Assembly (NCBI GenBank): GCA_947378515.1
Contig: CANCKG010000003.1
Location: forward strand, 1 to 12,990
Length of the DNA stretch: 12,990 bases
Origin: Gammaproteobacteria bacterium
GTDB taxonomy: Bacteria; Pseudomonadota; Gammaproteobacteria; CAISUE01
Direction of reading: 5' to 3'
Made by a program: the position numbers and the translations under genes. Below the pieces are notes generated by a model. The model worked only from the letters and a program-made list of their open reading frames with translations. It did not search any database and had not been told where the DNA came from. Positions 215-12,990 of the stretch are shown here, in pieces; the stretch's first letter is position 1, and every line of letters starts with the position of its first letter.

Positions 215-318
215 TGGTACCACCCATACGGCCAGTGGTACATCATAATCCGCGATTTCAACGTTCGCCGACAAAAAGCAGTGCTTTTCGAATTCCCGGC
301 TCACCCACAAGGACTCGC
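215..318 (-). repeat. Repeat family 2, copy A (fusA-tuf spacer)
   Basis: About 104 bp that align almost without gaps to 11522-11630. In plus-strand order it has TGGTACCAC, a 7-bp variable part, GCCAGTGGTA, then CGCGATTTCAACG. The core at 262-307 is shared with 4891-4936 and includes the palindrome AAAAGC-AGT-GCTTTT followed by GAATTCCCGGCTCACCCA. It lies 14 nt beyond the fusA stop codon. Strand is given relative to the neighbouring genes. No coding potential is claimed. It could be a MITE-like or REP-like element, or a shared 3' processing or termination structure. Confidence 0.8.
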
Positions 319-2548: not shown

Positions 2549-2640
2549 CCTTACGCGATGGGGTGATTTTAAGAGGGGGGAATCGCGATTCTCCCCTCTT
2601 AATCGCAAGCGCGGGTTTTCCGCGCGCAGCGAACTAGATA
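2549..2640 (-). repeat. Repeat family 1, diverged copy (rpsG-fusA spacer)
   Basis: It begins CCTTACGCGATGGGG like the MITE interior at 12065. A near-perfect 34-bp palindrome follows at 2569-2602, centred on AATCGCGATT with one G-T wobble, and then a GC-rich hairpin GCGCGG-GTTTT-CCGCGC at about 2609-2626. The distal end, CAGCGAACTAGATA, looks like a decayed form of the terminal repeat GTGCTGAATAGATAC. No left terminal repeat or target duplication is recognisable, so this is an older or truncated copy. Confidence 0.75.
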
Positions 2641-2712: not shown

Positions 2713-2740
2713 GTATCTATTCAGCGTGCTGAATAGATAC
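2713..2740. repeat. End-to-end junction of family-1 terminal inverted repeats
   Basis: GTATCTATTCAGC (2713-2725), then GT, then GCTGAATAGATAC (2728-2740): a perfect inverted repeat with a 2-bp centre. The two halves match the terminal repeats of the MITE at 12014-12160: the complete 15-bp right end plus 13 of the 15 bases of the left end, with no interior. The flanks TATATAAT and AAATAAAA do not form a target duplication. It ends 11 nt past the rpsG stop, so the RNA would form a strong hairpin there. Confidence 0.8.
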
Positions 2741-4688: not shown

Positions 4689-4717
4689 CCTTACGCGATA
4701 GGGGATTATCAAGGGGG
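4689..4717 (-). repeat. Repeat family 1, partial copy (upstream of dnaQ)
   Basis: CCTTACGCGATAGGGGATTA, then TCAAGGGGG, matches the first 25-30 bp of the family-1 interior seen at 2549 and 12065. The similarity stops where the other copies begin their long palindrome. Here a different palindrome (4731-4748) follows. It is most likely a truncated or recombined copy. Confidence 0.65.
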
Positions 4718-4890
4718 CTGTAGCGGAAAAGAAAAAACATGTTTTTTCCCGCGAAAGGCTAAGAGCAATGATGCTCTTGGCAGGGCTTTTCGGTAAGGCA
4801 GGATGAAAAACCTTACCGAAAAGAACGCGACTGGCTACTGCCAAGTAGCCATCCTTGGATGCAAGTCCAGCCTAGCCTTCCATGGCTAAT

Positions 4891-4937
4891 CGTTCACCGG
4901 CAAAAAGCAGTGCTTTTTGAATTCCCGGCTTACTCCC
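4891..4937 (-). repeat. Repeat family 2, copy B (core only, after lolB)
   Basis: The sequence CGTTCACCGGCAAAAAGCAG followed by TGCTTTTTGAATTCCCGGCT matches the core of copies at 262-307 and 11571-11616 with few differences. The outer half present in the other two copies (TGGNACCAC ... GCGATTTCAA) is not recognisable. It lies 34 nt past the lolB stop, in the same orientation as the other copies. Confidence 0.8.
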
Positions 4938-4970
4938 GCGCGTAGGTGAAAAAAAGAATGACTTGGTGTT

Positions 4971-11521: not shown

Positions 11522-11630
11522 TGGAACCACAATCAGTGCCAGTGGTACCACGGTTAGCTGCGATTTCAATGTTCACCGGCAAAAAGCAATGCTTTTCGAA
11601 TTCCCGGCTCACCCATAAAGACTTACTCTT
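11522..11630 (-). repeat. Repeat family 2, copy C (secG-tRNA-Leu spacer)
   Basis: It aligns with copy A at 215-318 over its full length. TGGAACCAC and GTGGTACCA (11522-11530 and 11542-11550) can form an 8-of-9-bp hairpin. TGCGATTTCAATG follows, then the core GTTCACCGGCAAAAAGCAAT, and GCTTTTCGAATTCCCGGCTC followed by ACCCA. It ends 14 nt past the secG stop, the same spacing as copy A after fusA. The rest of the 238-bp secG-tRNA spacer holds an 8-bp stem AAATAACA/TGTTATTT (11463-11492) and nothing else I can identify. Confidence 0.8.
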
Positions 11631-11644
11631 GCGGTCTTTTCATT

Positions 11645-11989
11645 TTAATGTGAAACGGGGCCCGTCGGTAATTGCGGGGTTAGCGCTTTTACCGGTGCTG
11701 CTATCGGGGCATTTTCAGCGGCTTTAATCGCCGCCAGCGCTGGATTCAATTGATTGGCGCGCGTCACTGACATCGCGCCCAATACCAAACTCATCACAAA
11801 AAACAACACACCAAACACCGCGGTTAATTTCACTAAAAATGACGCTGATCCTGCCGCACCAAACACTGTCGCCGACGCACCGGCGCCAAACGATGAACCC
11901 ATATCGGCACCTTTACCGCGCTGCATCAAGATCAATAACACTAAGATGATGCAAATCATCACATGCACAAACAATACCAATGAATACAT
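11645..11989 (-). CDS. secG: Protein-export translocase subunit SecG
   Basis: SecG is the auxiliary inner-membrane subunit of the SecYEG channel. The 114 residues have two membrane segments (about 2-22 and 53-73) joined by the conserved cytoplasmic loop LMQRGKGADMGSSFGAGASA, followed by TVFGAAGSASFLVKLTAVFG. The C-terminal tail is rich in Ala and Pro and poorly conserved, as usual. The ATG at 11989 is preceded by TTGAGG five bases upstream. It follows tpiA, with the MITE filling the gap, and precedes tRNA-Leu; tpiA-secG-tRNA-Leu is a common gammaproteobacterial order. Confidence 0.96.
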   Translation of the reverse strand: MYSLVLFVHVMICIILVLLILMQRGKGADMGSSFGAGASATVFGAAGSASFLVKLTAVFGVLFFVMSLVLGAMSVTRANQLNPALAAIKAAENAPIAAPVKALTPQLPTGPVSH

Positions 11990-12005
11990 AACAACCTCAA
12001 ATTAA

Positions 12006-12168
12006 CATTTTTAGTATCTATTCAGCACATTTACTACATTTTACGTAGAAGCTTGCTAGTGGCTCCTTACGCGATGGGGGATTTTAAGGGGGAGAATCGC
12101 GATTCTCCCCCTTAACATGCACTGCGTGCGGGTTTCCCGCGCACAGTGCTGAATAGATACCATTTTTA
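12006..12168. mobile_element. MITE-like element with 15-bp inverted ends and 8-bp target duplication
   Basis: The element proper is 147 bp (12014-12160). Its ends GTATCTATTCAGCAC (12014-12028) and GTGCTGAATAGATAC (12146-12160) are perfect inverted repeats. It is flanked by a perfect 8-bp direct repeat CATTTTTA (12006-12013 and 12161-12168), the signature of transposition. The interior has no ORF. It contains CCTTACGCGATGGGGG, a perfect 32-bp palindrome at 12084-12115 centred on ATCGCGAT, and a long hairpin at 12119-12149 (GCACTG ... CAGTGC around GTGCGGG-TTT-CCCGCGC). The right target copy includes the tpiA stop codon. The 8-bp duplication is compatible with several insertion-sequence families, so I do not assign one. 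Confidence 0.85.
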
Positions 12169-12918
12169 AATCAAATACATTTTGGCCATGGTACTAAATT
12201 CTATCGCATCCCATGAAGCACCACCGACTAGGCCGCCATCGACGTCCGGCATCGCTAATAAGGCAGCAAAATTTTGCGCTTTCACGCTACCACCATAAAC
12301 AATCGGAGTCCATTTCGCGTCACTACCCAATAGTGTCACTAAGACCGTCCTGATAAATTGATGCACATGCTGAACTTGTTCAGCATGTGCTACCTTACCT
12401 GTACCAATCGCCCAGACCGGCTCATAAGCAATGATGAACGCTTGAGCACCTTTTTTCTCAGCGAAGAGCTCGGTCAATTGTTGCTCTAGGACCATAAACG
12501 TTTTATTCGCTTGCCACTGTTCTAGCGTTTCGCCGATGCAGATGACTGGAACCAAACCCAATTCCATCGCGCGAGAAAATTTGCTGGCTATTTTAGCATC
12601 ATTCTCACCAAAGTAGCTACGTCGTTCTGAATGTCCGACTAATACATAGCGACAACCAAGATCCAGCAACATTTCCGCTGCTACTTCACCGGTATAGGCG
12701 CCGGGCGCAAATTCCGATACCGTTTGCGCACCTAGTGCAATCGAGGTCGATCCAATGACGTCAGCCACCAAACTCAAATAAGGCGTTGGCGGAAATAACA
12801 CGATCTCTAGCGCTGGTTCAGCGCCAGGCATGCTGAGCACCAATTGCTCAAGCAAGGCTGTAATTTTACGCGTGTTACCGAGCATTTTCCAATTAGCGAG
12901 TAAATATTTTTTGCGCAT
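12166..12918 (-). CDS. tpiA: Triosephosphate isomerase
   Basis: TpiA interconverts dihydroxyacetone phosphate and glyceraldehyde 3-phosphate in glycolysis and gluconeogenesis. From ATG at 12918 (AAGG six bases upstream) it has 250 residues, the normal length; the open frame extends to 12963, but the extra N-terminus is not family-like. Catalytic residues are Lys11 in ANWKM, His96 in VGHSERR and Glu166 in AYEPVWAIGTGK, whose second half is the flexible lid. Phosphate-binding loops are YGGSV (208-212) and GGLVGGASW (228-236). The stop codon lies inside the 8-bp target duplication of the adjacent MITE, so the reading frame survived the insertion. The 72 bp upstream show no clear promoter. Confidence 0.98.
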   Translation of the reverse strand: MRKKYLLANWKMLGNTRKITALLEQLVLSMPGAEPALEIVLFPPTPYLSLVADVIGSTSIALGAQTVSEFAPGAYTGEVAAEMLLDLGCRYVLVGHSERRSYFGENDAKIASKFSRAMELGLVPVICIGETLEQWQANKTFMVLEQQLTELFAEKKGAQAFIIAYEPVWAIGTGKVAHAEQVQHVHQFIRTVLVTLLGSDAKWTPIVYGGSVKAQNFAALLAMPDVDGGLVGGASWDAIEFSTMAKMYLI

Positions 12919-12990
12919 TTTGTGCCTTATCGCGTTTGATGATGGGTATTCACTTCGCGACAATGCGTTTCTCGAAATAAAAACGTAAGC

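Follow-up and report, generated by a model that had tools for sequence, protein, structure and literature searches.

A MITE with IS66-like ends at the 3' end of tpiA appears to carry a REP-like two-hairpin core that recurs between different ends

The gap between tpiA and secG in the gammaproteobacterial genome studied here very probably holds a MITE with IS66-like ends, inserted at the 3' end of tpiA and carrying a REP-like core as its cargo. As a MITE event the insertion is very clean but otherwise ordinary; what is added here is a structured core that MITEs with different ends have in common. The DNA analysed (the window, 12,990 nt) is the whole of contig C3 of the draft genome G000 (987 kb, 187 contigs, 58.7% complete). 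The sole genome of the same genus in our search for relatives, G001, is 99% complete. The features of the window are collected in Table 1.

Table 1. Positions of the element, its parts and the neighbouring features in the window.
Feature	Position	Strand	Remarks
Left target duplication copy	12006..12013	.	8 bp, CATTTTTA; letters read
Left terminal inverted repeat	12014..12028	+	GTATCTATTCAGCAC; 15 nt, 100% complementary to the right arm
Left arm	12029..12064	+	folds weakly; varies between subfamilies
Conserved core flank	12065..12080	+	CCTTACGCGATGGGGG; from core comparison
Hairpin P1	12081..12118	+	near-perfect palindrome
Hairpin P2	12119..12149	+	4-nt overlap with the right terminal inverted repeat
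Right terminal inverted repeat	12146..12160	-	complementary to the left repeat
Right target duplication copy	12161..12168	.	CATTTTTA; 12166-12168 (TTA on the + strand) is the tpiA stop codon
Second core copy	2552..2631	+	model R1, E 5e-18; rpsG-fusA gap; no IS66-like ends around it
Possible 28-bp remnant of the MITE	2713..2740	.	two terminal inverted repeats head to head; just past the rpsG stop; no matching 8-bp flanks
tpiA (triose-phosphate isomerase)	12166..12918	-	start taken at a likely internal ATG; TTG start at 12963 in the ORF list
secG	11645..11989	-	next gene of the presumed tpiA transcript

The element spans positions 12014-12160, between two genes that both lie on the minus strand, and contains no ORF that reaches 60 aa. 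A preliminary description of the locus had proposed perfect 15-bp terminal inverted repeats (TIRs) and a perfect 8-bp target duplication around 147 bp, and this is confirmed to the letter. It had also placed the tpiA stop within the duplicated bases; the coordinates bear this out (right copy, Table 1), and it is because the stop codon sits inside the duplicated 8 bp that it was kept and the gene end preserved. With respect to the interior, the two strong hairpins that had been announced are present as P1 and P2, but "almost entirely palindromic" was too much to say, since the left arm folds only weakly. The predicted fold of the gene-strand RNA reaches -72.6 kcal/mol, against -35.3 (sd 4.0) in 200 shuffles (z -9.3), and in it the left TIR pairs with the right one as well. 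A consensus scan of positions 11850-12350 found neither a terminator nor a sigma-70 promoter, and no Rfam family exceeded its threshold (gathering score) for the element or its core, tRNA alone passing. A separate dispersed repeat of about 64 nt (TTCACCGGCAAAAAGCARTGCTTTTCGAATTCCCGGCT...) occurs at window positions 252-315, 4881-4944 and 11560-11623; its 3' part resembles the end of a tRNA gene, and two short matches to it are also found in G001.

That the element is an insertion follows from the tpiA-secG gap of G001, which measures 21 nt, against 176 nt in the window, that is exactly 21 + 147 + 8. As had been predicted for a close relative, G001 has the site without the 147 bp: it reads AAATTGACAAGTTTAAATC, with a single copy of the 8-bp target that is two letters off CATTTTTA. 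The empty site that marks a MITE was thus found for one copy, that of the window; a TpiA search of the genome contig collection gave no relative. As an explanation of these sequences, an insertion that postdates the split from the sister lineage is the best. One could imagine instead that the 147 bp are a conserved non-mobile spacer, or a regulatory hairpin, of the tpiA-secG operon, given that they lie within the presumed transcript and fold strongly. However, the same site in G001 is empty, the lengths agree exactly and many copies occupy other sites; we reject this reading on the empty site and give it virtually no chance. Two findings had been named beforehand as speaking against a mobile element, a spacer conserved in relatives and a lack of other genomic copies with the same ends; G001 has no such spacer, and the copies are many.

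The search of the genome for the 15-bp end, which had also been proposed, gave 141 matches with at most two mismatches in G000, against 1 for a reversed-pattern control, along with identical full copies; in G001 there were 54 (control 1). At least 40 rows in G000 cover at least 130 of the 147 bases (40 scored among 100 candidates), and five of the scored rows are identical over all 147. Two of these five, on contigs C48 and C143, carry one common flank, GTCCAGTT, so the five represent at most four insertions; the C48 and C143 copies are probably one insertion split by the assembly. The recent insertion suggested at the outset fits these identical rows. The copies in G001 are more diverged from the window element, the best reaching 90%. 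Our collection holds 46 entries, one a duplicate, and hence 45 copies, of which 36 have both flanks (29 in G000, 7 in G001) and nine more lack a flank. Exact 8-bp duplications bound 18 of the 36 (15 of 29 in G000, 3 of 7 in G001), and in 24 at least 7 of the 8 duplicated bases match; the exact duplications are 78% A+T. Short, bounded by TIRs, devoid of coding capacity and dispersed in copies with target duplications, the element has the features of a MITE.

Of these 36 copies, 32 do not overlap any ORF of at least 100 aa. Within 25 bp of the elements lie 12 ORF 3' ends (at 11 copies) against a single 5' end, so that an insertion site like the one at tpiA is nothing out of the ordinary in this family. 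We infer that the bias is most simply explained if insertions at other places have been lost. Many contigs of G000 start or stop inside a MITE copy (for example C48, C143, C114, C71 and C171), which indicates that the element probably broke the assembly.

Among the aligned copies, alternative versions of each segment occur in differing combinations. Across the 45 copies, the arm and P2 types are found in all four combinations (12, 2, 1 and 14), as are the types of the middle segment and P2 (15, 8, 1 and 5). Such mosaic sequences suggest that copies have recombined or undergone gene conversion with one another, although errors of the assembly may account for part of them. There are also longer TIR-bounded relatives, of 186 to 471 bp, in which by eye the tip of P1 has apparently been swapped for longer hairpin stretches; the one of 186 bp has an exact duplication, GTGTCAAG. 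A relative of 100 bp with TIRs has the exact duplication CAATTGAT, and P1, again by eye, is absent from it.

The usual account of bacterial MITEs is that they are insertion sequences with internal deletions, and the end type by which a parent transposase would be recognised here is GTAT/GTAACTATTCAGCAC. The preliminary description had also suggested a transposase that may still be active elsewhere in the genome; a Pfam IS66-domain search returned partial matches alone, three in G000 (59% complete) and one in G001 (99% complete), and so no intact IS66 transposase with these ends in either genome; the parent consequently has to be deduced from other genomes. An IS66 fragment on contig C54 of G000 has an end-like sequence, GTAACCATTCACCAC, 75 bp past its stop. 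At this locus (L107, 1295-2085) a resolvase-like ORF (1513-2085) directly follows the fragment, replacing the rest of the transposase gene. Used as a query, the C54 fragment matched 37 of 369 genomes of the class; of 30 loci fetched, 9 have an end with at most three mismatches no farther than 80 bp past the transposase match. Two elements with an intact gene were examined in full. That of G264 measures 1727 bp, has the ends GTAACCATTCAGCAC and GTAACTATTCAGCTA and lacks a flanking duplication; that of G222 measures 1722 bp, has the ends GTAACCATTCAGCTT and GTAACCATTCAGCAT and is flanked by AATTTTTT on either side. Their proteins score far above the IS66 cut-offs, and both elements carry GTAACYATTCAG ends. 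They resemble the MITE in these GTAACYATTCAG... ends and, for G222, in an 8-bp duplication, but they are about 1.7 kb long with a single transposase gene and an interior that has no likeness to the MITE beyond the end. In the part of the IS66 literature used here, IS66 ends start GTAAGCG and insertions have 8-bp repeats (PMC11946415); the GTAA and the 8 bp agree with the elements described above, whereas the letters that follow differ.

The ends of the MITE open GTAT and those of the IS66 elements read here GTAA, a difference at the fourth base (T against A). This base aside, the two features of an IS66-derived element, IS66-like ends and an 8-bp duplication, are both found, and these matches make it probable that an IS66-type transposase moved the element in trans. 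It could be argued that the ends belong to another DDE family with an 8-bp duplication and that their likeness to IS66 is coincidental, in view of the fourth base and of a genus in which no intact parent was found. Yet matching ends stand beside IS66 transposases in several unrelated genomes and beside the IS66 fragment in G000 itself, and we consider such a coincidence improbable. An IS66-type DDE transposase, then, would act in trans on DNA bounded by these ends, and its insertion of the element at the 3' end of tpiA would have duplicated eight AT-rich bases.

Inside the element, the core consists of the GCGATGGGG flank, P1 and P2, and our covariance model of it (R1) matches positions 12068-12148. 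The palindrome pattern GGGGRRAATCGCGATTYYCCCC matched 93 genome contig stretches, 80 of which were retrieved, with 84 core matches in them. The retrieved stretches come mostly from gammaproteobacterial MAGs, and the MAGs matched include Legionellales SP151, a Coxiella sp. MAG, GWE2_42_36, Bin_66_13 and Zod_Metabat.15; further matches lie on several contigs from a bin with the label Myxococcales, and a single one, in Anaerolineae, lacks the rest of the core. The exact palindrome pattern had no match in viral contigs, and the plasmid collection had none to the core. A GCGATGGGG-like flank and the second hairpin are conserved next to the palindrome; the flank, which is unpaired, is present in 54 of 60 cores (all those with 25 nt on both sides). 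The covariance model found the core in 26 of 369 genomes of the class (E <= 1e-4, G000 and G001 included), belonging to 22 of 272 genera, and in 2 of 398 genomes of a phylum-wide draw, one of them G000, although many genomes of the phylum draw belong to the same class, so that the composition of the two samples cannot be compared. As a control, the model was run on 92 kb of IS66 loci, where it found no core.

Apart from the second core copy (Table 1), the window has a weak third match at 4692-4753 (18.5 bits, E 0.0015), beside a dnaQ-like gene. In several genomes a third hairpin such as CCCCGCAGCTTGCTGCGGG often precedes the core (L302-L309 in G095, L311-L316 in G113, and L317, L320 and L321 in G135), and in G135 the core occurs in tandem with no TIRs seen. 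The open-licence literature, judged mostly from listings, yielded no paper recognisably about the two-hairpin core.

For a comparison of the stems, 41 non-redundant cores were selected; a GCGATGGGG-like motif was required at this step, and hence its invariance in the alignments is biased. Alignments A1 and A2 comprise 31 and 27 of these cores, hand-picked, each with the two window cores and one from G030 added; among those left out are cores with an N, a broken right arm or different, G+C-rich flanks, and near-duplicates. As the search pattern fixes the tip of the stem, the outer pairs alone are informative. Two-sided changes occupy 52 cells in A1, against 17.8 in shuffles, while further pair types are not raised (15 against 17.0). 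In A2, which covers both hairpins, they occupy 89 cells against 29.5, in 16 of the 25 pairs, a count that none of 500 shuffles attained; the covariation score is 0.333 against 0.160, and further pair types (33 against 30.6) do not differ significantly. Over all 60 usable cores, 5.3 of 7 outer-arm positions pair, compared with 3.9 (sd 0.12) after permutation.

Template switching at hairpins (quasipalindrome correction) is a process that keeps two arms complementary. P1 might accordingly be free of selection and the core a decaying passenger, which would suit copies that are mosaic and a stem in which most changes replace one Watson-Crick pair by a different one and G-U cells are few in P1. This process does not explain, however, why an unpaired flank should be kept in nine cores out of ten, and P2, like P1, covaries in A2; it seems to us a rather unlikely account of the core.

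We tested 54 distinct cores with enough flank for a duplication of at least 8 bp together with TIRs matching at 9 or more of 14 positions, and found both in 17, against none of 263 mismatched flank pairs. Three of the 17, all in Bin_66_13, have GTAACCATTCAGCA-like ends and 8-bp duplications; a further core with IS66-like ends and a duplication (AACAAAAT) comes from G298. Thirteen, in six MAGs, have CAGCGGTTCCCGCT-like (CAG-type) ends, twelve of them with 9-bp duplications and eleven of these twelve 143-144 bp long. The ends of the last (L177) are unconvincing. Some contigs of Zod_Metabat.15 carry the core next to CTGAATAGTTAC-like right ends, the left ones being cut off; on another contig it is enclosed by CAGTAATTCCCGAG-like ends. 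A third kind of flank, ATACCGCTCGCC-like, is found in G030 and G000, without a shown duplication. Several cores in G000, including the one in the rpsG-fusA gap, have no IS66-like ends. To look for a parent with the second type of ends, G231 was searched with a pattern; it matched 58 times and the control 24 times.

Cores without ends, and ends without P1, suggest two separable parts, with the reservation that the dispensability of P1 depends on one 100-bp element, which could have lost P1 after insertion. Since the core also lies inside MITEs with other ends, and where there are no TIRs, it is best read here as cargo, which would ride along and be dispensable for movement; by its sequence it looks like a REP-like module common to unrelated MITEs. 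Perhaps it is even an independent structured module, an RNA or a DNA site, that is under selection and has been taken up by several unrelated gammaproteobacterial MITE families. In favour of such a module are the occurrence of one core with IS66-like ends, with CAG-type ends and without TIRs, the covariation of its stems and the presence, in at least one MAG, of the core beside both kinds of ends; against it are the lack of any Rfam family over threshold and a patchy distribution. We would put its chances a little below even.

REP elements, with their REP-associated tyrosine transposases, are likewise abundant intergenic hairpins, but the MITE described here differs from them in having TIRs and target duplications. 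The closest precedent described is QMITE2 of Coxiella burnetii, at least by analogy: 150-190 bp long, it has TIRs as well as unique direct repeats of 7-9 bp, is built around a REP palindrome, has short forms without TIRs and lies at gene 3' ends, some of which it overlaps by 1-10 bp (PMC5896051). Compared by description, the two are alike in size, TIRs, direct repeats, palindromic centre and 3'-end location; unlike ours, the REP of QMITE2 is the GTAG REP, a target of IS1111, and the passages on QMITE2 drawn on here state no link to IS66 (PMC5896051). Other high-copy MITEs derived from insertion sequences are MITECca01 of Cardinium, with an IS982 parent (PMC9769881), and MITEPsy1 of Pseudomonas syringae, which has probably an IS5-type parent and was caught transposing (PMC3189936). 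They differ from the MITE here in that, as far as these accounts describe them, they have no core common to other families (PMC9769881, PMC3189936).

The stems that the core has kept, and its location near the 3' ends of genes, fit either an RNA hairpin of mRNA ends or a tolerated passenger, and its most likely role is that of a hairpin which, in 3' untranslated regions, would be tolerated or mildly useful for mRNA ends. The significance of the element lies in its interior, which, the ends aside, does not resemble the presumed parent, is conserved in structure across many genera and is found again between ends of other kinds. A core found between different ends separates the mover of an element from what the element carries. 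If the core is indeed a selected module, it would be a cargo moved now by one transposase and now by another, and would accumulate at the 3' ends of genes. Natural variants with the core only, the ends only or both make it testable why hairpin repeats gather at these ends.
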